From: Pararhizobium capsulatum DSM 1112
GTDB taxonomy: Bacteria > Pseudomonadota > Alphaproteobacteria > Rhizobiales > Rhizobiaceae
DNA: 64,000 bases
Direction of reading: 5' to 3'
Assembly (NCBI RefSeq): GCF_030814475.1
Contig: NZ_JAUSVF010000005.1
Location: 35,691-99,690 of the forward strand
In this document: positions 38,004-61,604 of the stretch, in pieces
How the letters are laid out: each line of letters starts with the position of its first letter
Numbering within the stretch: the first letter of the stretch is position 1
Made by a program: the position numbers and the translations under genes
Notes under the pieces: generated by a model
What the model was told of the DNA's origin: nothing
The model's database searches: none
The model's input: the letters and a program-made list of their open reading frames with translations, nothing else

Positions 38004-38026
38004 GTATAGGATCCTTTGATCATCGC

Positions 38027-40327: not shown

Positions 40328-40331
40328 GGGA

Positions 40332-43130: not shown

Positions 43131-43148
43131 GCTGATCACTCGCATCCA

Positions 43149-43931: not shown

Positions 43932-43935
43932 CTAG

Positions 43936-44586
43936 TCACCACTTCGGCAGGGTTTTTTCGAGATAGCGAGACATGACGGTCAACACCTTAACGATCACGT
44001 AATAGTAAATCGCCAGCAGGCCGTAGATCTCCAGCGGGGCGAAATACATGGACACGAGGGATTGGCCGGAACGAGTAAGCTCGAACACCGATATGGCTGA
44101 AAGCAGCGATGTGTTCTTGGTGAGATTCACCACCTCGTTCGTCGCCGGCGGTACTATCTGGCGAAGCGTTTGCGGCAGCAGGATCCAGATCAGCGTTTGG
44201 CGCTCGCGCATGCCGATCGAGCGGGCCGCCTCCGATTGGCCCTTTTCGATGGAGCCAACTGCACCGCGGACGGTCTCGGAAATAAAGGCGGCACCGTTGA
44301 GCGACAGGGCGGCAACCCCGGCCCAGAATTCATTAAGTTCCAGGCCGAAGCCGGGCAGGACAAAATAGACGAAGAAGATCTGCACCAGCAATGGCGTACC
44401 GCGGATCACGTCAACATAGGCGTTGACCGGCAGGCGGATCAGCCGCGACTCCGACAGCGACATTAGTCCAAGCGCAATCCCCAGCGCGATCTCCGCGATG
44501 CCAGCCAAGATTGCGATCTCGATGGTCACGACCGAGGCCTTAGCCAGAAGCGGCATGGCCATCCAGACAATATTCCAGTCAATCAT
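43936..44586 (-). CDS. Polar amino-acid-type ABC permease
   Basis: Inner-membrane permease of 216 residues from ATG 44586 (MIDWNIVWMAMPLLAKASVVTIEIAIL). The loop GQSEAARSIGMRERQTLIWILLPQTLRQIVPPATNEVVNLTKNTSLLSAI contacts the ATPase. It is the single permease of this importer. An ATG at 44610 would add eight residues without a better ribosome site. Confidence 0.9.
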   Translation of the reverse strand: MIDWNIVWMAMPLLAKASVVTIEIAILAGIAEIALGIALGLMSLSESRLIRLPVNAYVDVIRGTPLLVQIFFVYFVLPGFGLELNEFWAGVAALSLNGAAFISETVRGAVGSIEKGQSEAARSIGMRERQTLIWILLPQTLRQIVPPATNEVVNLTKNTSLLSAISVFELTRSGQSLVSMYFAPLEIYGLLAIYYYVIVKVLTVMSRYLEKTLPKW

Positions 44587-44640
44587 ATGAATAACCTGCC
44601 GAGAGAGCATCCGGCGGCACTGTTGCCGCCGGACCGTAGA

Positions 44641-45489
44641 TCATTCCAGAACTGGAATTTCGGCGGGCATATCGAAGGCGACGCCAAACCACTTCTTTTG
44701 CAGCTCGGCGAGCTTGCCGCTTTTGGAGGCCGCCAGCAGCTGTTCATCGATATACTTGCGCAACTCTTCGTCGTCCTTGCGAATACCAATGCCTGCAAGG
44801 CTGCTGCCGGCGACCTTCTGCACCAGCGCATATTTTCCAGGAGCATTTTTGATAACGAGGCCGAGATTGGTCATGTTGCTGATCACCCCGTCGACCGTGC
44901 CCTGATTGAGGGCGAGGATCGACATCGGTTCGGAATCGAACACCTTGACCTCGCCGAATCCTTTGCCCTTGGCCTTTTCTACCTGCGCGTTGAATTTCGG
45001 CATCGAAGCCTCTTCCGGTGTCCCTGCCTTAATGGCGATCGGCTTCCCGGACATGTCGTCGAACGACTTGATTTTCCCATCGTCCTCGGCGCGCACCAGC
45101 ATGGCAAGCGAAGAGTCGGCGTAGGGAATGGAGAAGTTGACCTTTGCCATCCGCTCCTTGGTGTAGGACAGCGAGCTCATGATGATGTCGAACTTGCCAG
45201 CTAGCAGCGCCGGAACAATGCCCGACCACTGGGTATCGACGAAATCCGGCTTAACGCCGAGATCCTTGAACATCAGCTCCGCCAGATCGACGTCGTAGCC
45301 GACGATGACGCCGTTCTCCCGGTAGCTGAAAGGTGCAAAGACGCCTTCGACGCCAATCTTGATTGCCCCGTCCGATTTGATTGAAGCAAGCGTACGCTCG
45401 GCCGCCACGGCTGCAGATCCCAAACCTGCCATTATGGTGATGCCGACAGCGGTAGCGGTAAAAAGCATTCTGCGCGTGAATTTCTGCAT
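44641..45489 (-). CDS. Polar amino-acid-type ABC substrate-binding protein
   Basis: Periplasmic binding protein of 282 residues. The signal peptide is FTRRMLFTATAVGITIMAGLGSAAVAAE; the mature part has IKIGVEGVFAPFSYRENGVIVGYDVDLAELMFKDLGVKPDFVDTQWSGIVPALLAGKFDIIMSS, a family-3 signature. AAGGGGA lies 7 bases before the ATG. It is the first gene of the leftward operon and its upstream DNA is unusually AT-rich with repeats. The ligand is unknown. Confidence 0.9.
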   Translation of the reverse strand: MQKFTRRMLFTATAVGITIMAGLGSAAVAAERTLASIKSDGAIKIGVEGVFAPFSYRENGVIVGYDVDLAELMFKDLGVKPDFVDTQWSGIVPALLAGKFDIIMSSLSYTKERMAKVNFSIPYADSSLAMLVRAEDDGKIKSFDDMSGKPIAIKAGTPEEASMPKFNAQVEKAKGKGFGEVKVFDSEPMSILALNQGTVDGVISNMTNLGLVIKNAPGKYALVQKVAGSSLAGIGIRKDDEELRKYIDEQLLAASKSGKLAELQKKWFGVAFDMPAEIPVLE

Positions 45490-46685: not shown

Positions 46686-47066
46686 ATTTAGACATCTTTT
46701 TCTGAGGAGGGAGTTTCGGTTCGTCGCGGGCAATAATGATGAGGTGGGACCTCTGCAGAAGTAGCACCATATGGTGCGGGGCCAGAGGAGCCGATCGCCG
46801 ACAATATGACAGGAGGCCAGCTCCTAAAACAGCATACCATTCACCCGATGGTGCGGGGGATGGAAACAGTCCCACTCACATCGCCCATCCAGTACATTCC
46901 TCGTTACGTACAGCATAGATGTATTTGATCCTGGGTTCGACAGCATGATACCCATATCGATGTCAGTTTCATGAGGTCACACCTAGAGTTCGACACCTTC
47001 GCATTGTATCGAACGCGGCGAAAACTGAGATTAAACCTGCTACACCTCCAACGAAGGATTAAGCTC
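46686..47066. promoter_or_regulatory. Upstream region of the second importer
   Basis: About 380 bases with no convincing gene. It should hold the rightward promoter of the binding-protein gene at 47067, whose AAGGA site lies at 47055-47059. No clear operator or riboswitch was recognised. Confidence 0.35.
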
Positions 47067-47846
47067 ATGGAACCCAGTTTTCGCTCGCATGTAAAGCAGC
47101 TGTTCGGCGCGGCGGCCATCATCGTGCTGGCCACGGTATTGCCTGCCTCTGTCGCCTGGTCTGAGGACGCCAAAGAACTACTGTTCGCGACCGATCCCAC
47201 CTATCCGCCATTTGAATTCACCAAAAACGGGGTATTGACGGGCTTTGATATCGACCTGGTCGAGGCGATAGCCAAGGCTGAGGGTTTCAAGGTTAAGTTC
47301 GAGAACGTCCCGTTCGACGGGATTATCCCCGCACTCAAGGCAGGAACTTATGACGCAGCGGTCGCGGCAATGGTTGCGACGGAAGAGCGTGCGAAGTCCA
47401 TCGACTTTTCCGACCCCTACTTCAAAACGGGTCTGGTGATTATCGTCGGTTCCGCGGACAACACCATTCTTGGAGAGAAAGATCTCGCGGATAAGAGAAT
47501 TGCCGTGGAAGTGGGTTCTGTAGGCGCAGCTAAAGCCGCAAAGGTACCTGGTGCCCAAGTCAGCACGTTCAACGGCTCACCGCCGACTTTCATCGAACTC
47601 TCCAACGGAAACGTAGACGCTGTTATTGCGGATGGCGCTTCGTCGAACTACGCAGTGGCAACGGGCGCGGTGAAGGGGGTAAAGATACTACCTGATCCAC
47701 TTTCGACCGATGACTATGCGATCGGGTTTCCGAAAGACTCGGAGAACGCTGATCTTGTCAATGACGGCTTGAAGAAAGTCATGGCTAACGGCGAGTACAC
47801 CCGGATCTACAAGCAGTGGTTTGGCGTAGAGCCTCCAAAAAACTAA
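47067..47846 (+). CDS. Polar amino-acid-type ABC substrate-binding protein
   Basis: Periplasmic binding protein of 259 residues, from ATG 47067 with AAGGA upstream. Signal peptide SHVKQLFGAAAIIVLATVLPASVAWSED, then LLFATDPTYPPFEFTKNGVLTGFDIDLVEAIAKAEGFKVKFENVPFDGIIPALKAGTYDAAVA, a classical family-3 binding protein. It is the importer subunit next to the ammonia-lyase/urocanase/hydantoinase genes, so its ligand may be a histidine-like compound such as ergothioneine. That assignment is by context only. Confidence 0.88.
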   Translation: MEPSFRSHVKQLFGAAAIIVLATVLPASVAWSEDAKELLFATDPTYPPFEFTKNGVLTGFDIDLVEAIAKAEGFKVKFENVPFDGIIPALKAGTYDAAVAAMVATEERAKSIDFSDPYFKTGLVIIVGSADNTILGEKDLADKRIAVEVGSVGAAKAAKVPGAQVSTFNGSPPTFIELSNGNVDAVIADGASSNYAVATGAVKGVKILPDPLSTDDYAIGFPKDSENADLVNDGLKKVMANGEYTRIYKQWFGVEPPKN

Positions 47847-47940
47847 GATCGCTTCAACAATGTTCTCGTTCGGCTCAATTCACGAAATTGCCGGACGAGA
47901 ACACCCGTCGTCGCGGACGATATCGAAAAGATTGATCTTC

Positions 47941-48609
47941 ATGTCGCATTTCCAAACCATGTTCAACAGCTTCCCGATCCTTCTTTCAGCTGCGGGAATA
48001 ACTGTGCTTCTGGCATTTCTCGCGTATTGTGCGAGCCTGATCCTTGGAACGATTGTCGCCATAGCTCGGCTAAGCGAGATCAAAACGGTGAGGTTCCTGA
48101 CAATACTCTACGTGGATTTTTTCAGAGGGACGCCGCTGATCGTTCAATTGTTTATGATTTACTTCGGTATTCCATCGTTCATCCAGGAATTCGGCCTGTC
48201 TTTCCGCTTTGACAGGTTCTACGCCGCAATCCTCGCTCTCAGCCTTTATGGCTCTGCATATGTGGCCGAAGTCTTGAGGACGGGCATTCTGTCACTCGGA
48301 CTTGGTCAATGGGACGCGGCACGCGCATTAGGTTTGCGGACCTCGTTGGTTTGGCTCCTGGTTGTTCTGCCACAAACGTTTCGCCGTTCCATACCCTCTC
48401 TGGGCAATGAAGCAATTGGCATGCTCAAGAATACCAGTCTCGTGTCGATCATCGGCTATGAAGAATTGTTCCGTCGGGGTCAACTGATCGTCGCCGAAAG
48501 TTATCAGCCCTTCGAGATCTACACGGTGGTGGCTCTGATCTACCTGAGCCTCACGATACTGACGTCGATATTGAACCGAGCTCTGGAAAGCAGATTCAAA
48601 ACCATATGA
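47941..48609 (+). CDS. Polar amino-acid-type ABC permease
   Basis: Permease of 222 residues from ATG 47941 (MSHFQTMFNSFPILLSAAGITVLLAFLAYCASLILG). The ATPase-contact loop is GQWDAARALGLRTSLVWLLVVLPQTFRRSIPSLGNEAIGMLKNTSLVSIIG. It follows the binding protein by about 95 bp. It is a single permease subunit as in the other two importers of the window. Confidence 0.88.
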   Translation: MSHFQTMFNSFPILLSAAGITVLLAFLAYCASLILGTIVAIARLSEIKTVRFLTILYVDFFRGTPLIVQLFMIYFGIPSFIQEFGLSFRFDRFYAAILALSLYGSAYVAEVLRTGILSLGLGQWDAARALGLRTSLVWLLVVLPQTFRRSIPSLGNEAIGMLKNTSLVSIIGYEELFRRGQLIVAESYQPFEIYTVVALIYLSLTILTSILNRALESRFKTI

Positions 48610-48744
48610 GATCCAGGCGGAATTCCCTCCGTGGCAGGCTGCTGGTTCACTTTCGGTAGTTCCCCGATACTCATTTCGAGATCTTCAACCTTCTTAGAGA
48701 GCCAGCCGCACGCTGCTTCAAAAGTCGAAAAATAGGAAACAGCA

Positions 48745-49518
48745 ATGGCTGACGCCCAATTGAAAAAATTACAGGTTTCCACCACCGACGTTGCCGTCGA
48801 AATCGTAGGCGTCAATAAATGGTACGGCGACTTTCATGTTCTGCGGGACATCAATCTCAGAGTCATGCAGGGTGAGCGCATCGTGGTTGCCGGCCCGTCC
48901 GGCTCCGGCAAATCGACGATGATTCGCTGCATCAACCGTCTGGAGGAACATCAGAAGGGCAACATCATCGTCGACGGCATCGAGCTCACCAACGATCTGA
49001 AGAAGATCGACGAGGTGCGCCGCGAGGTCGGCATGGTATTTCAGCACTTCAATCTATTCCCGCACCTGACGATCCTGGAAAACTGTACGCTGGCGCCGAT
49101 CTGGGTTCGCAAGATGCCGAAGAAGCAGGCAGAAGAAGTCGCCATGCACTTTCTGAAGCGCGTCAAGATTCCCGAGCAGGCCAACAAATATCCGGGGCAG
49201 CTCTCCGGCGGCCAACAGCAGCGCGTGGCGATCGCCCGCTCGCTGTGCATGAACCCGCGCGTCATGCTGTTCGACGAGCCGACCTCGGCGCTCGACCCGG
49301 AAATGATCAAGGAAGTGCTCGACACGATGGTCGGCCTCGCCGAAGAAGGCATGACGATGATCTGCGTCACCCATGAAATGGGCTTTGCCCGCCAGGTCGC
49401 CAACCGGGTGATTTTCATGGACCAGGGCCAGATCGTCGAACAGAACGAACCGGCCGCCTTCTTCGACAATCCGCAACATGAGCGCACGAAGCTGTTCCTG
49501 AGCCAGATCCTGCACTGA
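48745..49518 (+). CDS. Polar amino-acid-type ABC ATPase (AapP-like)
   Basis: ATPase of 257 residues with [39 protein letters not shown] and CVTHEM. The central and C-terminal parts are very similar to the ATPase at 12755-13495 (both AapP/GlnQ type). The DNA from about 48880 on is more regular and GC-rich than the binding-protein and permease genes. The gene may therefore derive from a chromosomal aapP-like copy. It is 136 bp from the permease. Confidence 0.9.
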
Positions 49519-49824
49519 TCATTCTTGGCGAAGCGGCTCTTCGAGGCTGCCGCGGGCGGTCATCTCGTCACCTGTCTGTTCGACAAAAGGCTTAACCAGC
49601 GTAATCCAGCATTCTTCAGCCGGAACAAGGGTGGCGGACACCCCGCGGTATCGTCAGATAATCTCCTTCTGAGAGGTCTACTGGCCCCGTTTCAAACTTG
49701 TTGCGCAGTGCCCCTTTGACGACAAAAAAGTTCGCCTTCCACAGCGGGCACATGCCAGAGAAGGTCGTCCTTGAGGTTGCGGCTGATTAGCCTTCATCGT
49801 CCCAACCCGCGCAGCGACGCATTC
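49519..49824. other. Intergenic region between convergent genes
   Basis: About 305 bases between the end of the ATPase (49518) and the end of the convergent amidohydrolase (49825). No gene is supportable. It should contain terminators for both sides, but no strong stem with a T-run was identified. Confidence 0.4.
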
Positions 49825-51318
49825 CTACGACCTGTAGAATTCGCGGGCGTAAGGCAGGAGCGCGTTGCCCAGCCACTTTCCGGACTGTTCGGCCTCCGTC
49901 AGAGGGCGACGCATGTGCTCAGACAGGTTTTCGAGCAGAGCGCGATGATCGACCCTTGTAAACTGACCGTCCCTGTAAACGATCTCGCCGTCGACCATAA
50001 CGCCGTGAATATCCTGGGGCGTCGCACGGTGCATCACCGCATCAAGTACCGACGTGTTTCCGTCAAGGTAGGGATACGAAATCTTGTCTAGGTCAAACAT
50101 CACCAGGTCGGCACGACATCCAACTCTCAAGGAGCCGATCTTCTCGCCAAAAGGAGTTGTTCGAGCGCCCCCTAAAGTCGCCATAGTAAGTACTTCGTTC
50201 GTCGACGGAACGTCCGCGAGGTCCATTCCGGGTTGTCTGTGCGCGTTCAGCACGAGACGCATTTCCTGCAGCATGTCTCGATTGTCGTTGATACCTGCTT
50301 CGTCCATACCCAGGGCGACGTTTATCCCCCTTGAACGAAACTGATTTACAGGCGCTACACCGCTTCTCAATCGAAAATTGGAGCTGCAGTTGTGGCAGAT
50401 GTGCGTGCCTGTGTCGGCAACCATATCAAGGTCGCTTTCAGTCGCCCACACGCCATGTCCGATCGTGACACGCGGGCCGACTATTCCCAAAGACGCGATA
50501 TGTTCGAATGCTGATCGACCTGCGCGCTTGAACCCGTAGGCCTTCTGGTACTGCGTTTCCAGCAAATGGATGTGGATCGGCGCGTCATGCCTTTCGGAAA
50601 CATCTGCAAATTTTCTAAGGGTTTTATCCGAGCACCAATGCAGGTTCGCAGGAGCGAGCTGGATCCCCACCAGGCTGTCATCGGCGTAGTCAACGCGAAG
50701 CCTCTGGAACAGTGCGATGTATTCATCGACAGAGCCTTCGAACCTGGAGAGATGCCAGTTCGCCTTCGACCTCAGCTCCTCGGGTAGAGAGGCGACAAAG
50801 GCGGCATCGTCTCCGTAGACAAGGCGGTTCTGGTCGCGCACCGAGAAGCTTAGTGACACGCGCATGCCAATATCTTGATACGCCCGAATGATCTCACGCG
50901 CCGAAGCCTCCGATTGCTGGATTGAACCAATCGTGCCAGCACGAATATGCTGAACTGCGGTGACCCCAGAGGCCAGCATTTCGAAGGCTGAATAAACCGT
51001 GTCTAAATAGGGATCGACGTATCGCGCGCGCAGGCGATGGATCAGCCAGAGTTCCAAAGGAAGGTCCGGCGATCCGAGTTGCGTGGGCGTCAAACCCACA
51101 TGGTGGTGTCCGTTCACGAAGCCCGGCAACACGACGCTACGTTCGGATCCGAAGAGGGGCGCATCGGGGTGCGCCTCTCTGATTGCATCGTACGTTCCAA
51201 TTTCCTCGACAATACCGCCTCGTTGATAGATCGCCCCGCTCTCAAGCGGACGCCAACGACCGTCCAGCCCTGGAGCGCTATAGAGGTGCGACGCGCGAAC
51301 AATCGAAGCTTGGCTCAT
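49825..51318 (-). CDS. Amidohydrolase, candidate thiohydantoin desulfurase
   Basis: Metal-dependent hydrolase of 497 residues in the subtype III amidohydrolase group (as 8-oxoguanine deaminase, AtzB, HutF). Ligand motifs: LPGFVNGHHHVGLTP (H71, H73), APIHIHLLETQ, VTIGHGVWATESD and VALGMDEAGINDNRDM. It lies 27 bp downstream of the histidine-ammonia-lyase homologue on the same strand, so they are co-transcribed. If the cluster degrades ergothioneine, this is the candidate for replacing sulfur by oxygen on the thiohydantoin-propionate. A formiminoglutamate deiminase role (HutF) is an alternative. Confidence 0.78.
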   Translation of the reverse strand: MSQASIVRASHLYSAPGLDGRWRPLESGAIYQRGGIVEEIGTYDAIREAHPDAPLFGSERSVVLPGFVNGHHHVGLTPTQLGSPDLPLELWLIHRLRARYVDPYLDTVYSAFEMLASGVTAVQHIRAGTIGSIQQSEASAREIIRAYQDIGMRVSLSFSVRDQNRLVYGDDAAFVASLPEELRSKANWHLSRFEGSVDEYIALFQRLRVDYADDSLVGIQLAPANLHWCSDKTLRKFADVSERHDAPIHIHLLETQYQKAYGFKRAGRSAFEHIASLGIVGPRVTIGHGVWATESDLDMVADTGTHICHNCSSNFRLRSGVAPVNQFRSRGINVALGMDEAGINDNRDMLQEMRLVLNAHRQPGMDLADVPSTNEVLTMATLGGARTTPFGEKIGSLRVGCRADLVMFDLDKISYPYLDGNTSVLDAVMHRATPQDIHGVMVDGEIVYRDGQFTRVDHRALLENLSEHMRRPLTEAEQSGKWLGNALLPYAREFYRS

Positions 51319-51345
51319 GTCGATTCCCCGAAACTGAATGCCGTG

Positions 51346-52866
51346 TTAAATTTCAGGGAAGAAATCGTGTCCGACAGCGTCTATCAGGACGCCCTCACGG
51401 ACGAGCTTCAATGCGGCAGCGATATCAGGGCCCTGGCGTCGGTCCTCGTCCAGGTGGGCGACCACGGAGCGGAGACTGGCTCGCGCCCGCTCAAGCGGCT
51501 TCGACGAATCCAGCGGCTTATGGAAGTCGCATGCCTGTCCAGCAGTCATGAGTTCAATCGCCACAATGGTCTGTGTGTTCTGAGCCATTGCGAGCAAGCG
51601 TCGCGCGCCATGCGTTGCCATGGAGACGTGATCTTCTTGGTTGGCCGACGTGGGGATGGTGTCAATAACCGCAGGTGTCGCTTTCTGCTTGTTTTCGGAT
51701 GTCAGGGCGGCGGCTGTGATCTGTCCCATCATCAATCCGGAGTTCAGACCCGCGTCTTCCGTCAGGAATGGAGGAAGGCCGGACAGGGAGGTATCCAGCA
51801 ACAGACTGCTTCTGCGTTCCGACATGGAGCCGATTTCCACGGCCACAAGCGCAAGGTGGTCGGCTGCGAAGGCGACGGGTTCTGCATGGAAATTGCCGCC
51901 CGAGAGAACGTCCCCGTTATCGAATATAAGGGGATTGTCCGAGACGCTTTGCGCCTCGATCGCAAGAATGCCAGCTGCGTGTCGCATGGCGTCTAGGCAT
52001 GCCCCCATCACCTGCGGCATGCACCGTAGGCAGTAGGGATCCTGTACCTTGCTACAGTTGCGATGGCTCTCGCGAATTTCAGAGCCGTCAATGAGCGAAC
52101 GGTAGGTTTTCGCGACGTCTACCTGTCCAGGGTGGGGCCGGAGTGCATGAATGCGCGCGTCGAACGGAACGTCGGTCCCTTTTGCACCGTCAAGCGACAA
52201 AGCGCCCGTAACGAGGGCAGAGTGAAACGCGCGCTCGATCTCGAACAGTCCGGCGAGCGCCAGGCCCGTGGAGACCTGAGTGCCATTAAGAAGCGCCAAG
52301 CCTTCCTTTGGGGAAAGTGCCAAGGGCTCGACGTTGTTCGCGATCAGCACATCCATAGCTGGCGATGCCTTGCCATCGACCAGGAATTCGCCTTCACCCA
52401 TCATTGCGGCAACGAAATGCGCCAGCGGAGCCAGGTCGCCCGAAGCGCCGACCGATCCCTGTGCCGGAACCGCAGGGGTGAGGCCAAGAGCAATGATCTT
52501 TTCGATCATCAGCAAGGTCGCAAGCTGTGCGCCTGACGCGCCCTGTGAGAGGCTGGCGATCTTGAGTGCGCCGATGAGGCGTACGATCTGCGGCGCGAGG
52601 TAGTCGCCAACGCCGACTGAGTGTGACAGGACAAGGTTTCGCTGAAGCTGTGCGAGGTTGTCGTCGGAAATTCGAACCGACGCAAGTTTCCCGAAGCCCG
52701 TGTTGATACCGTAGACTGGCGCGCCGGACTTGATGATCGCCTCGACTGCCGCCGCGCCGGCGGAGATCTGCGGGTAGGCCCCTTTGTCGAGTTCGAACGA
52801 CTGGCCCCAGTAAATGCCGCGCCAATCCGCTAAAACGTTTTTACCCGGTGATATCGTGACGGTCAT
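51346..52866 (-). CDS. Histidine ammonia-lyase family enzyme (ergothionase candidate)
   Basis: MIO-dependent lyase of 506 residues. The MIO triad is A141-S142-G143 in [14 protein letters not shown]. Residues matching the HutH pocket are present: Y52, H82, N194 in ALLNGTQ, Y278 and R281 in [12 protein letters not shown]326 in GGNFHAEP and E411 in [11 protein letters not shown]. It eliminates ammonia from histidine, or trimethylamine if it is an ergothionase. The full HutH pocket makes histidine plausible, but the neighbours do not form a classical Hut pathway. It is divergent from the LysR gene at 53025. Confidence 0.85.
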
Positions 52867-52960
52867 TTGCTCCCAATCTCTATTCTGCGCTCGAATTTTA
52901 ACGCATCGTAGCGCGTCTCGCCCGAAATTTGCGTAGTCGTGTCTCCACGGATAGTTTCAT

Positions 52961-52983
52961 AATGGAGAAACGTTTTTTCCATT
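52961..52983. promoter_or_regulatory. Palindromic operator candidate, lyase/LysR promoter
   Basis: A 23-bp imperfect palindrome (AATGGAGAAAC, central G, TTTTTTCCATT; 9 of 11 pairs match) lies in the 158-bp gap between the leftward lyase start (52866) and the rightward LysR start (53025). Its position and symmetry are those of a LysR autoregulatory and activation site. Confidence 0.5.
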
Positions 52984-53024
52984 CTGCCGCCTAAGATGAA
53001 CCTATCGAAAGTTGGAGCGAGCCG

Positions 53025-53963
53025 ATGTCATCGAGCACTCAACGCATACCGCCGCTTCACGACGTGGACATTCGTCTACTGCGGATATTCAAGTCGGTTG
53101 TGGAATGTAAGGGTTTTTCGGCCGCGGAAGAAACACTTGGCGTCGGTCGGTCGACAATCAGTAAACATGTCGCCGATCTCGAGGAACGTCTACTCATCCG
53201 GCTCTGCGAGCGCGGGAGGTCTGGCTTCAATGTGACACCTCACGGGCAGATCGTCTACGAGGCGACGATTGAGCTGTTGGATTCGCTCGATCATTTTCGT
53301 TCACGAGTGGCGCTCGCCAAAGGCAGGCTTTCCGGATCGATCAATCTTTGGGTGATGGACAATACCCAGCTCGAACACGGCAATCCGCTCGCCGTCGCGC
53401 TCGAGGTCTTCAAACGACGCCCCGGAAGTGCAACGATCAACATCAATACGGCAGGCCCCGAAGCAGTGGAAGATGCTGTGTTGAACCGACTTGCAAACGT
53501 TGGCGTTACCATAGCGAACAGCGACTTGCCGGGCCTGACCTATCGTGCCGTCGGGGTCGAAACCAACGCGCTATACTGCTCGACGAGTAACGAAATAGCG
53601 CGCGCGCTCGACGGAAAGCGGATCGACGACGCTTTGCTCACCAAATGCGATTTTGTGACCAGAGGGTACCTTCGCAGCGTTCCGACCATACGGGGACGTC
53701 ATTGGAAATCGACGGCTGTCGCCTATCACGTGGAAGCGACGCTACAGCTTATACTCAGCGGTCAGTATCTTGGGATTTTACCTGATCACATTGCAAGGCC
53801 CTGGGTGGATAATGGGCGTATTATCAAGTTACCGATGCCAGAAGCCGAGGACAGCACGACGATATCTCTTGTGTTTCGGACAAAATCCAAGAGCCTTCCG
53901 CTCGTAACAGCCATGGGGGAAGACATCGCCGAGGCATACCGTCATACGAGAAAACAGCCTTAG
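53025..53963 (+). CDS. LysR-family regulator of the lyase/hydantoinase cluster
   Basis: LysR-type regulator of 312 residues. The helix-turn-helix is LLRIFKSVVECKGFSAAEETLGVGRSTISKHVADLEERL; the effector domain follows from about residue 100. GGAG lies 8 bases before the ATG. It is divergent from the lyase-amidohydrolase pair and convergent with the urocanase-like gene, so it sits in the middle of the cluster and is the obvious candidate activator. The effector may be a urocanate-like intermediate. Confidence 0.88.
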   Translation: MSSSTQRIPPLHDVDIRLLRIFKSVVECKGFSAAEETLGVGRSTISKHVADLEERLLIRLCERGRSGFNVTPHGQIVYEATIELLDSLDHFRSRVALAKGRLSGSINLWVMDNTQLEHGNPLAVALEVFKRRPGSATININTAGPEAVEDAVLNRLANVGVTIANSDLPGLTYRAVGVETNALYCSTSNEIARALDGKRIDDALLTKCDFVTRGYLRSVPTIRGRHWKSTAVAYHVEATLQLILSGQYLGILPDHIARPWVDNGRIIKLPMPEAEDSTTISLVFRTKSKSLPLVTAMGEDIAEAYRHTRKQP

Positions 53964-53987
53964 CGGCGTGGTGTGTCCCACGCCGCT
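53962..53987. terminator. Bidirectional hairpin terminator
   Basis: AGCGGCGTGG and CCACGCCGCT form a perfect 10-bp stem with a TGTGTC loop, between the convergent LysR gene (ends 53963) and urocanase-like gene (ends 53996). Only a T-rich tail (TTCTATCATT) follows on the plus side. It probably serves both directions. Confidence 0.65.
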
Positions 53988-53995
53988 GGCTTCTA

Positions 53996-55696
53996 TCATT
54001 TAGGACCGAACGTCGCCTCAGCCGTCCACCACAGCGGAATCTTGATCGCCTCGTTGGTCAGCGGGCCTTCGCCTCGGGCCACCTTCCGCGCCATCGGGTA
54101 TCCTGCCTGAGCATGGCGGACCACGCCGATACCCGAATCCGTCGTTAGGCATGCCTCCAATCTAAGCGCAGCTTCATCCGTCCCGTCGGCGATCATCGTA
54201 ACGCCAGTGTGTGCGGAAATGCCCATCGTGCCATTGGCCTGGATTGCCACCAGATCGGCCATCGCGGCGACGTTGAGCAGCGCGTTGATGTAGGGCCAGT
54301 CCGATATCGCGTCCGAGCCGTCGAGCATTCCTTCGGTTTCGAAGGCGGGGTTGGCGATCGACCCGCAATCGAGGTTGTCACGTGCGAAGGCCACGGGGCC
54401 TGATATCTCACCCGTGCGGACCAGCTCGTTCACCGCGAGTCCAAAGGCCTTTCGTTGACCAAAGCCGAGGAAGCATACGCGGGCGGGTAGACCTTCAAGG
54501 GGAAGTTTTGACGCCTTCGGGATCCATCTCTGGACGAGTTCGTCATCGGGAAACAAGTCCAGTGCAAGCTTGTCGAGCCGGACCTGGTCGCTTTTTTCAC
54601 CGGAGATGCAGGTCCACCGAAACGGACCGCGTCCCTGGAAGAACAGCGGGCGCACGTAACGCACGATGCAGCCTGGGAAACGATAGGCCTCTTCCTTGGG
54701 CATGCCAGCGTCAACGCACTCCTTGCGGATGAACGTGCCATATTCGAAAACGACGGAGCCGCGGTCCATTAGGATGTTGAGAGATTTGACCATTCTGAGC
54801 ATCGTAGCCCGGGACCGTGCCATGTACTCGTCCGGGTTCTGCGTTCGAAGGTCGACGGCGTCTCTCGGAGCCAGGCCCGAGGCAATCAAAGCGTATGGAT
54901 CGTGACACGGGCACATTTCCGTGACGATATCTGGCTTCCATTCGAGCGACACAGCCTCTTCGAGGACGTCGCACATGTTACCCGATACGATAATACTCAG
55001 AGCGCGCCGCTCTTTCTTGGCTTCTTCTGCCAGCGTAATGGCTTCTTTCAGCGAGTCGACACGCATGTCGGCATAACCCGACGCGATCCTCTGGTCGATT
55101 ATCTCTTCCCGGACCTCAACGCATACGGTAACGCCGCCGTGCATGCCCATCGCGAAGGGCTGCGACCTACCCATTCCGCCGAGACCCGCCGTAAAGAATA
55201 TCCGACCCGCCAGATCTCCCCCAAAATGTTCGTCGGCTACAAGTGCCAAGGTCTCGAAAGTACCTTCGACAACACCCTGGCTACCGATGTACTGCCACGG
55301 CCCAGCCGTGTAGGACGAATAAGTCGTGAGGTTCTTCGCCAGGAGCCCGTAGAACATCGGCCAGTCAGCCTTGATCACGTTGGTGTTGCCCATCACGACC
55401 CGCGGTGCCAGGCGATGCGTTTTGAAAATCGCAACGGGCATGCCCGCCTGGATCGCGAGCGTCTCGTCGTTCTCCAGGTTTTTCAGCGCTTCGACGATTG
55501 CATGAAAGCTTTCCCAGTTACGGGCCGCTTTGCCGATGCCACCGTAGACAACCAGGTTCTCGGCGCTCTCCGCGTTCTCGAGATTGTTCTCGAGCATTCG
55601 AAGAATGGATTCCTGTCGCCAGCCCTTGCAACGGAGGTGGCTGCCCCTTTGGGCTTTCACTGTCCGGAGGATCGGAGCCGCATTGGTTTTCAACAT
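53996..55696 (-). CDS. Divergent urocanase family protein (thiourocanate hydratase candidate)
   Basis: NAD-dependent hydratase of the urocanase family, 566 residues. Shared motifs include CKGWRQE, VVYGGIGKAARNWE, YIGSQGVVEGT, the Rossmann loop GLGGMG (171-176), GLPARVCFLGFGQR with C408, and DGSDAISDWP. Two canonical blocks are changed: the usual TDQTSAHDP is TEMCPCHDP (259-267), and the usual HHGGGVGMGxSQHSG is IQANGTMGISAHTG (485-498). Such differences suggest a substrate other than plain urocanate. It is third in the unit hydantoinase-carbamoylase-urocanase, 16 bp after the carbamoylase. Confidence 0.85.
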   Translation of the reverse strand: MLKTNAAPILRTVKAQRGSHLRCKGWRQESILRMLENNLENAESAENLVVYGGIGKAARNWESFHAIVEALKNLENDETLAIQAGMPVAIFKTHRLAPRVVMGNTNVIKADWPMFYGLLAKNLTTYSSYTAGPWQYIGSQGVVEGTFETLALVADEHFGGDLAGRIFFTAGLGGMGRSQPFAMGMHGGVTVCVEVREEIIDQRIASGYADMRVDSLKEAITLAEEAKKERRALSIIVSGNMCDVLEEAVSLEWKPDIVTEMCPCHDPYALIASGLAPRDAVDLRTQNPDEYMARSRATMLRMVKSLNILMDRGSVVFEYGTFIRKECVDAGMPKEEAYRFPGCIVRYVRPLFFQGRGPFRWTCISGEKSDQVRLDKLALDLFPDDELVQRWIPKASKLPLEGLPARVCFLGFGQRKAFGLAVNELVRTGEISGPVAFARDNLDCGSIANPAFETEGMLDGSDAISDWPYINALLNVAAMADLVAIQANGTMGISAHTGVTMIADGTDEAALRLEACLTTDSGIGVVRHAQAGYPMARKVARGEGPLTNEAIKIPLWWTAEATFGPK

Positions 55697-55712
55697 TTTG
55701 ATGTCCTGGTAT

Positions 55713-56975
55713 TTAGTGTCGGTTGCTGTCGAGAATGAGAATGGCGTCGAGAAGCGTCTGTGCTCCCCGTGCCATCTGATCCGTGGAAGCGAATTCTTCC
55801 GGGCAGTGACTTCGGCCGTCGAGACATGGAATGAAGATCATCCCGGACGGAGCGAGCAACGCTACGTGCGCGGCGTCGTGACCAGCCCCGCTGGGCATGG
55901 ATCGATACTTAAATTTGTGAGAAGCGGCGGCGTCGCAAATCGCCACCTGCACCGCCGGGTCCATTTCGATCGGCTCGCTTTTGCCGACAACCTTGCAGAC
56001 CAGATCGAGGCCGCGCTCCGAAGCGATCGACCCCGCATGCCACTGCGCCCATACAGCGAAACGCTGCAGTTGTTCGGCCGAGCTCGATCTGATCTCGAGG
56101 GTGAACCTCACCTGCCCAGGGACCACATTCGAAGCGTTTGGAAGGACTTGAAGCTTGCCAACGGTCGCGACCATAGCCGTCTCCTCGCCAAGAGCTCTGC
56201 TCTCGAAACCCACGATCATGGCCGATGCTCCAACCATAGCGTCCTTGCGCGTTCCCATGGGAGTTGTCCCGGAATGATCGGCTCGTCCGGTCACTTCGAA
56301 AACCATCCGCGTTATGCCGACAATCGCGGTAACCACGCCGACGTCGTCACCGGCAGACTCCAAAACTCGACCCTGCTCGATATGCATCTCGAGAAAGGCC
56401 TTGATTTCGCCCTTCATGCGGATAGGGGCACCCAGCTTGTGCGGGTCCCCGCCCATCAAGGCTATGCCCTCGGCAAGTGTGGTCCCGTCTGCGGCCCTGT
56501 GCGACAGCTGCGCGTCGGTAAGTTCACCCGCCATAGCGCGGCTGCCGATGCAAGACAGCTCGTACTTGTTTGGCTCCTCCGCCAGGAAATCGATAACCTC
56601 GAACGGATGCCGAAGCCTCTGACCTGCGTCCCGTAAGGTGCTAATTGCCTCGAGCGCGACTATGACCCCGGCGGCACCGTCAAAGCGACCGCCATCCGGA
56701 ACCGTGTCGCTGTGTGATCCCGAGGCAAGCGGCGGAAGATTGCCGGAGACCCCGGGAAGACGACCAATGAGATTTCCCCCTGCGTCAATCTCGACCGCCA
56801 TCCCCAGAGAACGCATCTCTTCAGTCAGCCACGCGCGGGCCTTCCGATGGTTTTCGCCGAACGCAATTCGCGACCAAGGCTTGTCTGGATCCGTAAATGT
56901 GGAAAGCTTGTCGATCCGGCCCTGAATTCTATCCGCGTTGACGATCGGTCCGGTAGTTTCTTTATGCATCTTCAT
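55713..56975 (-). CDS. N-carbamoyl-L-amino-acid / allantoate amidohydrolase
   Basis: M20/M28-type amidase of the hydantoinase/carbamoylase family, 420 residues. Metal-site motifs are GSHSDTVPDGGRFDG (H88, D99), LAEEPNKYELSCIGSRAMAG (E133/E134), MHIEQG (H198) and PSGAGHDAAHVA; GRADHSGTTPM is the dimerisation/substrate loop. It hydrolyses a carbamoyl amide to the free amino acid, CO2 and ammonia. Between hydantoinase and urocanase genes the natural substrate would be N-carbamoyl-L-glutamate. It starts 7 bp after the hydantoinase. Confidence 0.88.
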   Translation of the reverse strand: MKMHKETTGPIVNADRIQGRIDKLSTFTDPDKPWSRIAFGENHRKARAWLTEEMRSLGMAVEIDAGGNLIGRLPGVSGNLPPLASGSHSDTVPDGGRFDGAAGVIVALEAISTLRDAGQRLRHPFEVIDFLAEEPNKYELSCIGSRAMAGELTDAQLSHRAADGTTLAEGIALMGGDPHKLGAPIRMKGEIKAFLEMHIEQGRVLESAGDDVGVVTAIVGITRMVFEVTGRADHSGTTPMGTRKDAMVGASAMIVGFESRALGEETAMVATVGKLQVLPNASNVVPGQVRFTLEIRSSSAEQLQRFAVWAQWHAGSIASERGLDLVCKVVGKSEPIEMDPAVQVAICDAAASHKFKYRSMPSGAGHDAAHVALLAPSGMIFIPCLDGRSHCPEEFASTDQMARGAQTLLDAILILDSNRH

Positions 56976-56982
56976 TTTGATC

Positions 56983-58326
56983 TCACCACGCGAAGGGCTT
57001 TACGAAACGTCCGGCCCCCGGCTCATTGACTACGTTCTTTCCGTCCCAAATGGGCCTGCCTCGGAGATAGGTTTGCTTGATTTGTGGCAGCCACATTTCG
57101 TCGTAGAGGCTCCAGTCGGACACGGTCTGCGAACTCGCCACTCGCCACGGCGCTAGCGTGGGATCGATAATGCTGAAATCCGCGTCGCACCCTGTTTGAA
57201 GAGCCCCCTTGCTGGTCAGACGAAAGTGGCGCGCGGGGTTGAGCGCGAGCACGCGTGCGGCAACGGCGAGATCCACATCGCGGTCCACGCATCCCTTAAT
57301 TAGGGCCGGAACCAATACCTCGAGCGATGGGCCGCCCGACGCGTTCGCCAGCATGTCCGGATTGTTCTTTCGATCCAGGGACCATGCCACGTGGTCGGTC
57401 GAGACTATATCGATGGCACCTGCCGTCAGGAATTTCCATAGGCTCTCTCTCTCCGGCTGCGCGCGTATCGGAGGGTTGCCTTTTGCGAGACCAATCTTTT
57501 GTCGAACGGTGTTGTCTTCGTCGAACATGAGATAGTGAATGCAGACCTCTACAGAGCAGTCAAAACCTTGCCGCTTGTAGGTTTCACAGATCTCTATCCC
57601 ACGGCCCAGCGAGCAGTGCACAACATGTGCCCGACATCCGGTGAAGGCACCGATTTCGTAGATTTCGGCGATCGCGAGCAATTCGGATAACGGCGTGTGA
57701 GTTTCTCCGTGCGCGAGGTAATCGGTTCGTCCCGACGCCTTCATCTGAGTAATCAGCTTCTTGACGATTTCTTCGTTTTCGTTGTGCACGCCGGACGCCA
57801 GTCCAGACTTGGCAACTTCTGAGAAAGCCTGCGACATAAGCAGAGGGGAGATACGCGGGAAGCGCTCGGGATCAGTTCCGAACGTCGAAAACTTGAAAGC
57901 GCAGACACCAGCATCGACCTGTTCTGGTATCTTGCTGACGCCGTCAGAAGGCCTGATCGTTCCGTAGAGCGCCACATCTACGTGTGCTTGCGAGGCAATG
58001 TCAGAAGCTTTGCTCTCGACGCTTTCCCTATCGCAAACGAGGAGACCCTCGTCGTATGGCATATCGACAATCGTCGTCACGCCGCCTGCAGCTGCAGCTT
58101 TGGTCGAGAATTTGAAATCTTCCCGGTTCTTTTGGCTTCTTGAATGAACTTGGGCATCGATAGCACCCGGGAACACAAATGCGTCTTCAAAAAACAGTCG
58201 CTCGTGAGCTGTACCTGGATCATTTGCGCTCGTGCCAACTACTTTGCCAGCGGCTACGCTCAGATAGCCGCCCCGGATCACCCCGGCCGGGGTTACAAGA
58301 TTTCCTTTGACAACCAAGTCCAGCAT
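56983..58326 (-). CDS. Hydantoinase / dihydropyrimidinase-type cyclic amidohydrolase
   Basis: Cyclic amidohydrolase of 447 residues. Metal ligands: GAIDAQVHSRSQKNRED (Q59 where most have His; H61), carboxylated lysine K145 in CAFKFSTFG, H181, H237 in HVVHCSLG and D311 in STDHVAW. The Q-x-H variant also occurs in some dihydroorotase-like enzymes. It should open a five-membered cyclic imide such as hydantoin-5-propionate to N-carbamoylglutamate; allantoin or dihydropyrimidines are alternatives. GGAG lies 6 bases before ATG 58326. It is first in the leftward unit with carbamoylase and urocanase-like genes. Confidence 0.85.
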   Translation of the reverse strand: MLDLVVKGNLVTPAGVIRGGYLSVAAGKVVGTSANDPGTAHERLFFEDAFVFPGAIDAQVHSRSQKNREDFKFSTKAAAAGGVTTIVDMPYDEGLLVCDRESVESKASDIASQAHVDVALYGTIRPSDGVSKIPEQVDAGVCAFKFSTFGTDPERFPRISPLLMSQAFSEVAKSGLASGVHNENEEIVKKLITQMKASGRTDYLAHGETHTPLSELLAIAEIYEIGAFTGCRAHVVHCSLGRGIEICETYKRQGFDCSVEVCIHYLMFDEDNTVRQKIGLAKGNPPIRAQPERESLWKFLTAGAIDIVSTDHVAWSLDRKNNPDMLANASGGPSLEVLVPALIKGCVDRDVDLAVAARVLALNPARHFRLTSKGALQTGCDADFSIIDPTLAPWRVASSQTVSDWSLYDEMWLPQIKQTYLRGRPIWDGKNVVNEPGAGRFVKPFAW

Positions 58327-58948
58327 CTATGACTCCGATTATTTTCTTCGAAGTTGAAGATGACGCGGTGCGACCAAACTGTCGGCATGGGTTTTTGCAC
58401 CTAATGTTGGGGAATTTGGCAACCAGTCACTAAAGACGGAGCATCTTTGAGAAGAGGTTCCGAAGCGAATTGAGAAGCGAATGCGTAGGGTAACCCGAGG
58501 TCAGCCGCAGACCGAGCTTTTTTGCGTTAATCCGCCAACGAGGATCTGGGCCGTGTCCCGTTCACCGCTGTGGCAAACATCGCTGGAGTGCCTGCGATGC
58601 GGTTCCACTACACTTTCATCCGCCGACAGGTGTGCCCGGCGGGTCCCTGTTTATCGTCGGATCTGGCCAGGCACCTCTGCTGCTTTGATTTCGTAGGCAG
58701 GGGAGCGCGCTACCATGGCTGGTCGCCAACCGGTCGTCTCGGCTGGGATGAAGCGACTGTTGTGACACAAGAATGGCGATAGATTGGTTTGATGCAGAAC
58801 TCCTAGATGCGCCGAGGCGCTCTACAGGCGTGTCGGTTCACGCGCGGGATGCACCTCAGCGAATACGGTATAGTCAGTCGTGTACTTTGGCACTGTAATG
58901 CGGTCCCGTAGGACGAGCGTCGCAAGGAGCGCGGACATTTTAGACGCT
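58327..58948. other. Intergenic region between hydantoinase and Ldh2 genes
   Basis: About 620 bases. The right side ends at the Ldh2 stop; the left side must contain the promoter of the hydantoinase-carbamoylase-urocanase unit. Short frames are present but none is supportable. No terminator or operator was clear by eye. Confidence 0.4.
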
Positions 58949-60031
58949 TTATTGCAACGAAGTTGGAAATCTGATCGGCATTCCCCTCATGGCCTGCCGG
59001 ATGCGTTGAAAAACAATGGGACGAAGTAGAATGCCTCTCGGGTCCATCCGATTATTGCCGTCCAGACTTCCCTCTCCAGGTATACGGATATTTTTAGCGC
59101 CTTCTTCGAGCGTCACGTCTTTGACGTGACAAAGGAAGCGTTCAAGTTCTGCCGTGAACTCGTTCAAGCCCCGGAAGTGTTCTACGTCGAACGAAATCAG
59201 CAGAAAGGCCTGGTCTTCTGTTTCAGGGTTTTCGTTGGCTGTTCCGCCGCCCGTCAGTGCTCCGGCAAGCGCCTCTACAACGATGGCCAGGCCAAAACCC
59301 TTATGACCCCCGAAATGGCGCAAGACGCCGACGCTATTCACCCACTCCGCAGGGGGCTGCTCGCCACGGTCTATGGTTTCACTTAGCCGACCAAACGCCA
59401 CCGTGCTGGTCGACATGTCGAGAACCAGATGGGGCTTCGCCGCCCGGGGAATACCAAAAGCAAGCGGATTGGTTGACATCCGCGCCTCGATGCCTCCAGG
59501 CGGGGATACCTGCTGTCCACCGCCGGACTCGTTAGCGAAGAACATGGTCACCACTCCCACGTCGGCAGCACGCTCGCAATAGTCAGCGAGACGGCCGCCA
59601 GAATCGCACCCTTTAACCGCGATAATAGCTACGCCATGCTGTTTCGCGCGTGCGATTGCAATGTCGGTGGCATCCCGCATGACGATGTTACCGTACGCTC
59701 TTTGTCCGTCCGCGACGATGATTACTCCACTGTCCTTTTCTATTTTCAACTTGGCCGAGGGATTACAGAAACCCTCTTTCGCTCGGGAAATGTATTCCGG
59801 AAACCGCCTAACGCCATGACACTCGTGACCAGAGAGTTCCGAAGCGATAATGACGTCCGCCATGAAGTCGGCATCACCCGTCGGCATGCCTATGTGGGTG
59901 AACGCGCTCGATATGAACAATTGCATGTCGTCAGGCGGGCAAAAGCGGTTTTTTTCGTTTTTGGTTATCTGTTGGTTTTCACGCAGAACTGAGCCGGTTA
60001 GGCGCATAATTTCCATTGAGAATTGAGCCAT
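58949..60031 (-). CDS. Ldh2-type malate/lactate dehydrogenase, 5' end replaced by IS21
   Basis: NAD(P)-dependent oxidoreductase of the Ldh2/AllD/YbiC family (malate, lactate or ureidoglycolate dehydrogenase). Native sequence begins at about 59969 (ITKNEKNRFCPPDDMQLFISSAFTHIG) and shows SGHECHGVRRFPEYI, NPLAFGIPRAAKPHLVLDMSTSTVAFG and GGHKGFGLAIVVEALAG. The first 20 residues of the frame (MAQFSMEIMRLTGSVLRENQ) come from the IS21 end, so the original start and promoter are probably lost. It may be silent, or expressed from the insertion sequence. It lies upstream of the hydantoinase genes on the same strand and could have belonged to their pathway. Confidence 0.72.
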   Translation of the reverse strand: MAQFSMEIMRLTGSVLRENQQITKNEKNRFCPPDDMQLFISSAFTHIGMPTGDADFMADVIIASELSGHECHGVRRFPEYISRAKEGFCNPSAKLKIEKDSGVIIVADGQRAYGNIVMRDATDIAIARAKQHGVAIIAVKGCDSGGRLADYCERAADVGVVTMFFANESGGGQQVSPPGGIEARMSTNPLAFGIPRAAKPHLVLDMSTSTVAFGRLSETIDRGEQPPAEWVNSVGVLRHFGGHKGFGLAIVVEALAGALTGGGTANENPETEDQAFLLISFDVEHFRGLNEFTAELERFLCHVKDVTLEEGAKNIRIPGEGSLDGNNRMDPRGILLRPIVFQRIRQAMRGMPIRFPTSLQ

Positions 60032-60083
60032 GTGAACCTTTCCCCCCAACGCGGTGAGCGACGGGGGCAACGGAGTGATCCAC

Positions 60084-61604
60084 ATGGGACTTTTAAACAT
60101 CATCCGCCGGATGGCGCTGCGCGAGAAGCAGTCGATCCGGGAGATCAGTCGGCGCACGGGGCTGTCACGCAACACGATCGCGAAGTATTTGAGCGCTGGT
60201 ACGATCGAGCCGACGTTCGCGGTACCGGAGCGACCGAGCAAGCTTGATCCTTTCGCCGATAAGCTCTCTGGCTGGTTGAAGACCGAGGCCGGGAGGTCGC
60301 GCAAGCAGCGCCGAACGCTGAAGCAGCTTCATGCGGACTTGGTGGTTCTCGGCTTTACCGGCTCCTATGGTCGGGTCGCCGCATTCGCCCGTGACTGGCG
60401 GGCTGAGCAGCAGAAAGCGGGCCGCGGCATATTCGTTCCGCTATCCTTTCGCCCAGGCGAAGCATTCCAATTCGATTGGAGTGAAGATTATGCCGTGGTA
60501 GGCGGCGAGCGCACGAAGCTGCAGGTCGCACATATCAAGCTGTCGCACAGTCGGGCTTTTCTGGTCAGGGCCTACCTGCTGCAAACGCACGAGATGCTGT
60601 TCGATGCCCATTGGCACGGCTTCCGTGTGTTCGGCGGCGTACCTGGCCGTGGCATCTACGATAACATGAAGACGGCGGTCGATCGCGTAGGCCGGGGCAA
60701 GGAGCGGCAGGTCAACATCCGCTTCCTGGCGATGACGAACCATTATGTCTTTGCGCCCGAGTTCTGCAATCCAGCGGCAGGTTGGGAGAAAGGTCAGGTC
60801 GAGAAGAACGTCCAGGATGCCCGACCACGCTTGTGGCAACAGATGCCGGACTTTCCAGATTTGGCGGCGTTGAATGCCTGGCTGGAACAGCATTGCCAGG
60901 ACCTATGGAGGGAGACTGCGCATGGCACCTTGTCCGGCACGATCGCGGATGTCTGGGCTGATGAGCGGGCAGCATTGATGTCGCTCCCCGCCATGTTTGA
61001 CGGCTTCGTCGAGCAGAGCAAGCGCGTCTCGCCGACATGCCTGATCACCTTTGAGCGTAATCGTTACAGCGTGCCAGCATCGTTTGCGAACCGGCCCGTC
61101 AGCCTGCGGATTTATCCCGAGCGACTGGTCGTTGCGGCCGAGGGCAATGTCCTATGCGAGCATGAGCGGGTCATTGAACGCAGCCACGACAAACCGCCGA
61201 GGACGATTTATGACTGGCGACATTACCTTGCCGTCATCCAGCGCAAACCCGGTGCCCTGCGCAATGGTGCGCCCTTCCTGGAATTGCCGTTGGCCTTTCG
61301 ACAACTGCAAGACCAGATGCTTCGCCGCCCCGGCGGTGATCGTGAGATGGCGGACATACTCGCTCTTGTCCTTCATCACGACGAACAGGTCGTCCTCAGG
61401 GCTGTGGAACTGGCTTTGGATGCGGGGGTGGCGACCAAGACGCATGTGCTGAACCTGCTGCATCGGCTGATCGACGGCAAGACAATCGATGGTCCCGACA
61501 TCGATACGCCACAGGCGCTGACCTTGCTGCGTGAACCCAAGGCCAACGTCGAACGCTATGATGGCCTACGCGCCCGGATCGCAGGAGGTCGCCATGCGTC
61601 ATGA
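60084..61604 (+). CDS. istA: IS21 transposase IstA
   Basis: DDE transposase of 506 residues from ATG 60084 ([39 protein letters not shown]), with an N-terminal helix-turn-helix. The integrase core includes [72 protein letters not shown] and [25 protein letters not shown]. It is full length and apparently intact. Its stop overlaps the istB start by 11 bp. Confidence 0.92.

Follow-up and report, generated by a model that had tools for sequence, protein, structure and literature searches.

A conserved gene cassette in Pararhizobium capsulatum predicted to degrade a histidine derivative by a hydantoin-type route

Known routes and the cassette

The closest described relative of the system reported here is the breakdown of ergothioneine, which reportedly proceeds in vitro in five steps by way of ergothionase, thiourocanate hydratase, thiohydantoin desulfurase, hydantoinase and carbamoylase (ErtA-ErtE; NCBIfam models NF058530, NF058529, NF058538 and NF058540). 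Next to it stand a variant for S-methyl-thiourocanate (models NF058531 and NF058532; example loci L117 and L118) and the hut pathway of histidine. The subject of this work is a gene cassette in a stretch of 64,000 nucleotides of Pararhizobium capsulatum DSM 1112, the last 64 kb of a contig of 99,690 bases (C5), which as a whole is called the window below.

The cassette shares with the ergothioneine pathway the ErtD and ErtE steps and the order of lyase, hydratase, C2 clean-up, hydantoinase and carbamoylase, but it has a lyase of the 4-methylideneimidazol-5-one (MIO) type, a hydratase of a separate urocanase clade (B2) and a TRZ/ATZ-type amidohydrolase in the place of the desulfurase. With the S-methyl-thiourocanate variant it has ErtD and ErtE in common and also, as far as L118 is concerned, a HutH-type lyase, whereas the thio-type hydratase and the DUF917-type desulfurase of that variant are absent from it. 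The hut pathway in turn shares the HutH-type lyase; the cassette urocanase scores over the HutU cut-off but lies outside the HutU clade, and different from that pathway the cassette is devoid of HutI, HutF and HutG and would end via a hydantoin. Finally, its TRZ/ATZ enzyme shares family, metal and catalytic motifs with such amidohydrolases as S-adenosylhomocysteine/methylthioadenosine (SAH/MTA) deaminase, guanine deaminase and atrazine chlorohydrolase. Annotation would label genomes that carry the cassette as degraders of histidine or ergothioneine, although its enzymes as a set match neither role.

We conclude that the cassette is real and well bounded and that it is a new form of hydantoin-type breakdown of a histidine derivative, and not ergothioneine catabolism. 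On balance, and with somewhat better than even confidence, we suggest that it degrades to glutamate a histidine with a hydrolysable group X at C2 and a free alpha-amino group. In the proposed route the HutH-type lyase would remove ammonia to give 2-X-urocanate, the B2 urocanase would hydrate this compound to 2-X-imidazolone-5-propionate and the TRZ/ATZ amidohydrolase would exchange X for oxygen, taking the role that the desulfurase ErtC has for ergothioneine and yielding hydantoin-5-propionate, whose ring ErtD would open to N-carbamoyl-L-glutamate for ErtE to convert to L-glutamate, CO2 and ammonia. Gene content, conservation, families, motifs and tree positions were observed; from them we infer the reactions, their order and X.

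Chance grouping of the genes is not at issue, since the block from the amidohydrolase gene to just upstream of ErtD (49825-58424) is collinear with a locus of Mesorhizobium sp. LMG 17147 (L025:7274-15872), with which it forms one blastn alignment with 76% DNA identity over 8,618 columns. The locus comparison comprised 81 loci, namely the window, three plasmid loci and 77 loci from the best 80 of 428 urocanase relatives, these in turn coming from a scan of one genome per species. The full set of HutH-type lyase, B2 urocanase, TRZ/ATZ amidohydrolase, ErtD, ErtE and LysR regulator is present in ten of the 81, in a rhizobial form (the window and L025), in Burkholderiaceae (L018 and L019) and in Pseudomonas (L026-L031, with L027 and L031 being two copies within one genome). 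Two further loci are partial: L032, from a gammaproteobacterial metagenome-assembled genome (MAG), has the urocanase, TRZ/ATZ, ErtD and ErtE genes with no lyase recognised nearby, and L033 (Burkholderia) has lost ErtD and retains ErtE as a 126-residue fragment. The TRZ/ATZ gene is kept in all 12 of these whole or partial cassettes. An ACT-domain gene is present in nine Burkholderia and Pseudomonas loci, of which eight have an amino-acid importer as well, and in Burkholderia ambifaria (L018) and Paraburkholderia graminis the cassette is plasmid-borne. Among 249 sampled genomes of the order of P. capsulatum, a urocanase of this type (clade B, below) was found in the window's own genome only, the remaining matches (E ≤ 1e-100) being 46% identical or less; the cassette is thus sporadic and probably mobile. 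A plasmid of Rhizobium sp. NIBRBAC000502774 (L112:12001-12903) encodes an ErtD whose 76% identity to that of the window is confined to residues 1-264, perhaps a relic of this cassette.

The enzymes of the proposed route

The lyase assigned to the first step (51346-52866, minus strand, 506 amino acids) exceeds the HutH equivalog cut-off (TIGR01225, 632 vs 539) and retains every residue that we compared with histidine ammonia-lyase (HAL) of P. putida, that is Y53, H83, ASG 142-144, N195, Q277, Y280, R283, F329, M382 and E414, which we take to be the catalytic and binding positions of that enzyme. In a tree of 36 rows the rhizobial and the Pseudomonas/Burkholderia cassette lyases are grouped with two HutH proteins (99/100). 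The Ala-Ser-Gly MIO triad is missing in all three ErtA-type lyases examined (L006, L107 and L108). Since the MIO group is required to expel ammonia and the window lyase keeps the triad, its substrate should carry a primary amine.

The putative hydratase (53996-55696, minus strand, 566 amino acids), recognised by its urocanase domains and its tree position, scores 609 with the HutU model (TIGR01228, cut-off 375), 567 with the thiourocanate hydratase model (NF058530, cut-off 930) and 616 with that for S-methyl thiourocanate hydratase (NF058531, cut-off 880). In a midpoint-rooted tree of 41 rows HutU, thiourocanate hydratase and S-methyl thiourocanate hydratase form one clade each, and the window protein falls into a further clade B (100/100), which consists of B1 (99/97) and B2 (100/99) and of which it is a B2 member. 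Its place in a separate clade speaks against a merely divergent HutU, and by cut-offs and tree we also reject the S-methyl variant. A tree of lyase and urocanase had been put forward, in a sequence-only reading that saw the cluster as an ergothioneine route, as the means to tell the two apart from canonical HutH and HutU, and its answer is a divided one: the lyase groups with HutH, which speaks against ergothioneine, and the urocanase lies outside the HutU clade. Among the positions that separate B2 from B1 are 128, 178, 322, 409, 451, 490 and 494. Common to B1, B2 and HutU are G52, G53, C408 and H496, the same four positions being occupied by A, A, A and S in the one ErtB and by M, N, G and S in the one S-methyl hydratase compared. 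The B2 residues F322 and S494 are found in 109 of the 120 relatives listed from the databases, a number that includes the window's own protein, and the B1 pattern in the other 11. The loci compared are mostly B1; the urocanases of L020, L042 and L084 are absent from the residue comparison and from the tree. The analysis thereby sets out a further urocanase clade together with a testable question about its substrate. As an observation in its own right, lyases encoded beside B1-type urocanases have H83 replaced in 14 of 14 rows (by D in 11, C in two and N in one; every third such lyase was compared, about a third of those found), and such loci (e.g. L045, L070, L074, L083 and L098) have HutI-like and often formiminotransferase genes nearby; they possibly represent a separate pathway for a modified histidine.

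The middle step is assigned to a TRZ/ATZ-type amidohydrolase (49825-51318, minus strand, 497 amino acids; PF01979, E 4.9e-47) with the HxH, HxHxxE, H and D motifs. If step 2 delivers an imidazolone and step 4 consumes a hydantoin, ring C2 must gain an oxygen in between, and a hydrolase could bring this about only by displacing a resident group. Among the solved relatives of the TRZ/ATZ enzymes are SAH/MTA, 8-oxoguanine and guanine deaminases as well as atrazine/triazine hydrolases; these deaminases and atrazine chlorohydrolase exchange a ring substituent for oxygen. The rhizobial enzymes are only 28-31% identical to those of Pseudomonas and Burkholderia, and in the tree the rhizobial enzyme is nested (100/100) in a broad family found in other gene contexts, outside of which the Pseudomonas/Burkholderia enzyme is found. 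HxH, HxxE, H and D are nevertheless kept in both forms and in L032, and as the two forms come from different parts of the tree and have the same motifs, this type of enzyme was probably recruited more than once. The glutamate of HxxE is missing in two HutI sequences compared and present in two HutF sequences. The two closest proteins in the databases share 79-81% identity with the window enzyme, the next 63% or less. In two MAGs with a B2 urocanase elsewhere (G638 and G639) a TRZ/ATZ gene, whose product is 52% identical to that of L032, directly adjoins a gene for an ErtD-like hydantoinase, and in G639 this pair is followed by a racemase-like and a nitrilase-like gene, labels which we read from the sequence. 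Deducing the substrate from the wide family of the amidohydrolase was considered and given up, as its members on the four plasmids looked at (L021-L024) offer a weak hint only: they lie beside ABC importers of another type, and in three of the four a carbon-nitrogen hydrolase gene is next to the amidohydrolase.

The last two steps are assigned to an ErtD-type hydantoin-5-propionate amidohydrolase (56983-58326, minus strand, 447 amino acids) and an ErtE-type N-carbamoyl-L-glutamate amidohydrolase (55713-56975, minus strand, 420 amino acids). With the ErtD model (NF058538, cut-off 600) the proteins of the window, L025, B. ambifaria L018 and L032 score 680, 669, 681 and 693, respectively, and with the ErtE model (NF058540, cut-off 520) those of the window, L025 and L018 score 552, 553 and 617. 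In the ErtD tree the ErtD of Burkholderia arboris L114, an ergothioneine cluster by its hydratase (1050 vs 930) and desulfurase (608 vs 440), is nested inside the cassette ErtDs of Pseudomonas and Burkholderia (100/99 and 99/95), and across a 100/100 branch the rhizobial and L032 ErtDs are found with six alphaproteobacterial ergothioneine ErtDs; support for this branch is 90/88 once the long row L110, which drew long-branch warnings in the ErtD and ErtE trees, is set apart. Because the ErtDs of cassettes and ergothioneine clusters interleave in this way, their common substrate is probably hydantoin-5-propionate. The ErtE tree speaks more weakly for sharing: it recovers the Pseudomonas/Burkholderia ErtEs as a single clade, next to L114, in 76% of bootstraps and places those of the rhizobia with this group and not with the alphaproteobacterial ergothioneine ErtEs. 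That the route runs from hydantoin-5-propionate through N-carbamoyl-glutamate to glutamate, as the sequence-only reading had it, is therefore upheld by both scores and by the ErtD tree. A thiohydantoin desulfurase is absent from all eight other cassette genomes searched, two of which have partial cassettes and one of which (G633) is a MAG that may be incomplete, the genomes of L018 and L019 lying outside this search; ErtD in these eight is thus unlikely to serve ergothioneine.

The ErtD/ErtE ending can accordingly be regarded as a module that can be reused behind different front ends. In the stretches of three loci (L109, L119 and L120) ErtD and ErtE were recognised but no urocanase; L119 and L120 also have UbiD/UbiX decarboxylase genes and L109 and L120 a HutH-type lyase, and the three may have yet another front end on the same ending. 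In Microvirga ossetica (L113:7758-11591) a thiohydantoin desulfurase (604 vs 440) accompanies ErtD and ErtE in a stretch that has neither lyase nor hydratase. The S-methyl-type cluster of an Agrobacterium plasmid (L117:3076-8982) also includes genes for a molybdopterin S/N-oxide reductase and a glutathione-S-transferase-family protein, which perhaps serve a sulfoxide form.

The substrate and competing explanations

Ergothioneine and histidine each appear to have their own genes elsewhere in the genome. Contig C1 carries in a row genes for a thiourocanate hydratase (1043 vs 930), a thiohydantoin desulfurase (595 vs 440, the genome's sole copy over the cut-off), ErtE (598 vs 520), ErtD (784 vs 600) and a lyase, which fits no equivalog model and which we label ErtA by its position and missing MIO triad. 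Contig C2 carries hutF, hutI, hutH and hutU, all over their cut-offs, with a hutG-like gene among them that was named from its sequence. The earlier statement that hutI, hutF and hutG are missing consequently holds for the window and not for the genome. Tblastn of the window with the genome's own HutI and HutG-like protein returned nothing at E ≤ 1e-3, and HutF matched only an amidohydrolase outside the cassette (41608-42648, 25.6%). Nor did the window yield anything at E ≤ 1e-3 with the genome's own ErtC, the thiohydantoin desulfurase and a relative of the S-methyl thiohydantoin desulfurase, as query. Near the C2 hut cluster a HutH paralogue without the ASG triad adjoins ABC importer genes (L005:15973-17466, minus strand); it is a candidate betaine lyase, e.g. 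for hercynine.

Five further cassette genomes from rhizobia, Pseudomonas and Burkholderia (G629-G632 and G634) were searched for both hutI and additional urocanases; all five have hutI over the cut-off and a further urocanase, so that plain histidine is already covered there. As for the identity of X, nitrogen is more likely than sulfur, as it fits the deaminase family of the TRZ/ATZ enzymes and as the sulfur clusters seen rely on DUF917-type desulfurases and on hydratases of the thio type. The simplest C2-nitrogen substrate would be 2-aminohistidine, which is our leading candidate by way of a guess, a dedicated catabolic pathway for this compound being in our view a rather doubtful proposition. 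On paper 2-aminohistidine may be drawn as an aromatised enduracididine and also as a ring-closed gamma-oxo-arginine. If this were true, the route could connect hydroxyarginine-type amino acids of plants and microbes to glutamate, and the Ldh_2-family dehydrogenase encoded beside the two rhizobial cassettes (in the window at 58949-60304, minus strand; PF02615, E 2.9e-77) would be a candidate for the preceding oxidation. A histidine with nitrogen at C2 would point to an overlooked amino acid in soil or plants.

Several observations weigh against a C2-substituted substrate. All canonical HAL residues examined are kept in the lyase, and plain histidine may be what it acts on; similarly, the HutU-like G52, G53, C408 and H496 of B2 could indicate an unsubstituted C2. 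A HutI-like gene, which belongs to a pathway with hydrogen at C2, is present in 58 of the 81 loci (formiminotransferase-type genes are present in 25), and B1, the sister clade of B2, sits with such genes. The Streptomyces relative L020 adjoins hutI (345 vs 298) and hutF (455 vs 413), and one solved relative of the window amidohydrolase, if a distant one, is HutF (3mdu, E 3.2e-15). In the MAG that contains L032 (G633) the B2 protein is the only urocanase and hutI over the cut-off is missing, and in G637 no TRZ/ATZ gene adjoins the ErtD-ErtE pair. Another seven loci from MAGs (L034-L037, L039, L040 and L042; the urocanase typing covers the first six) have neither ErtD nor a motif-complete TRZ/ATZ gene nearby, and two of the seven genomes contain no ErtD match at E ≤ 1e-40. 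An attempt to read a substrate from the neighbours in these seven loci was dropped, as MttB, formate-tetrahydrofolate ligase, a polyhydroxybutyrate regulator and a thiolase suggest no clear theme. L020 with its hutI and hutF, the two MAG genomes lacking an ErtD match and the urocanase and hutI state of G633 fall outside our model. Moreover, neither 2-aminohistidine catabolism nor this gene set was found in the open-licence literature searched, and to our knowledge no C2-amino histidine is a common natural product, nor did that literature name one.

But could the cassette then act on a substrate with hydrogen at C2, that is on histidine or N-methylhistidine? ErtD, the TRZ/ATZ enzyme and ErtE would in this case copy HutI, HutF and HutG by opening the ring, removing ammonia or methylamine from the formimino group and deformylating the product, respectively. 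The number of hydrolases matches, three for three, and the lyase and hydratase residues, the neighbours of the Streptomyces urocanase and the distant kinship with HutF are all in line with it. However, ErtD and ErtE score over hydantoin-specific cut-offs and the ErtDs interleave with those of ergothioneine clusters, both TRZ/ATZ forms are far from HutF in the tree and by the HutF model (101 and 83 vs a cut-off of 413), and hutI is already available in the five genomes mentioned as well as in that of the window. Unless it copies HutF, the conserved TRZ/ATZ step would be unexplained with plain or methylated histidine. We regard this explanation as unlikely, chiefly on account of the apparent hydantoin specificity of ErtD and ErtE.

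A C2-substituted histidine might instead carry sulfur as X (2-thiohistidine or its S-methyl form), with the TRZ/ATZ enzyme acting as a desulfurase or as a hydrolase that releases methanethiol. The closest known routes do handle thio and S-methylthio groups, the S-methyl-type cluster L118 likewise has a HutH-type lyase with MIO, and TrzN, a TRZ/ATZ relative, removes methylthio groups. Then again, the DUF917/S-Me-THD desulfurases and thio-type hydratases of the sulfur clusters seen are both absent from the window, whose hydratase also shows none of the residue changes that mark both thio-type hydratases in the comparison, and we consider sulfur quite unlikely. Alternatively, the genes may form a redundant histidine cassette in which the TRZ/ATZ enzyme acts upstream or is unrelated and imidazolonepropionate is oxidised to hydantoin-5-propionate without a cluster-encoded enzyme. 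Such an oxidation is known chemistry and would agree with the canonical lyase residues, but the TRZ/ATZ gene is retained in every one of the 12 whole or partial cassettes and no oxidase is recognised by domains among the six genes of the conserved block, which makes this explanation improbable. The proposal of the sequence-only reading that the cluster converts ergothioneine to glutamate, trimethylamine, H2S, CO2 and ammonia can draw on ErtD and ErtE scoring over their cut-offs but is scarcely credible in view of the HutH-type lyase with its MIO triad, a urocanase below the thiourocanate hydratase cut-off and outside that clade, the lack of a desulfurase in the window and in the other cassette genomes searched, and the separate ert cluster on C1.

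Gene arrangement and flanking genes

The intergenic gaps between ErtD, ErtE and the urocanase and between lyase and amidohydrolase measure 7-27 bases, so that there are apparently two minus-strand transcription units. The gene of the LysR regulator (53025-53963, plus strand, 312 amino acids; PF00126/PF03466) lies between them. Its product is 90% identical to the LysR protein of L025 and 41-43% to those of L018 and L019, and related LysR genes are found in ten other cassette loci. A promoter and terminator scan of 52800-54050 gave one and no sites, respectively, which is not above shuffled sequence.

All genes named in the sequence-only reading (importer, amidohydrolase, HutH homologue, LysR, urocanase, carbamoylase and hydantoinase) are present where and on the strands it gave and have the expected domains. 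It had also called the importer the cluster's own. Genes for a family-3 amino-acid solute-binding protein (46971-47846; PF00497, E 5.7e-41), an ABC permease (47860-48609; PF00528, E 7e-18) and an ABC ATPase (48745-49518; PF00005, E 4.4e-38), all on the plus strand and possible components of such an importer, are indeed there; as they lie beyond the conserved block, their tie to the cassette is one of adjacency. The sole similarity of the ATPase gene to L025 is an 81-base match elsewhere in that locus.

On the other side, the Ldh_2 protein, which may be an accessory of the cassette, is 72% identical over 338 columns to the product of the ErtD-adjacent gene of L025, where the orientation relative to ErtD differs. 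As listed, its reading frame overlaps that of a transposase (60054-61604), and the true start probably lies downstream of the listed one. This transposase frame falls within an IstA/IstB-like pair (60054-62388, plus strand; of the insertion sequence type IS21, recognised by eye from the translations), which adjoins the Ldh_2 gene at the cassette edge. GC content, taken at 4-kb steps, is 53-58% over 44-60 kb vs 57-65% elsewhere, without a sharp edge.

A neighbouring operon (37596-45489, minus strand) has its own amino-acid importer, a RidA-like protein and two further TRZ/ATZ-like amidohydrolases, one of them 38% identical to the Burkholderia cassette enzyme, as well as a protein resembling arylmalonate decarboxylase and Asp/Glu/hydantoin racemase, a GntR regulator and a DUF3830 protein. 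It probably encodes another route for an N-heterocycle.

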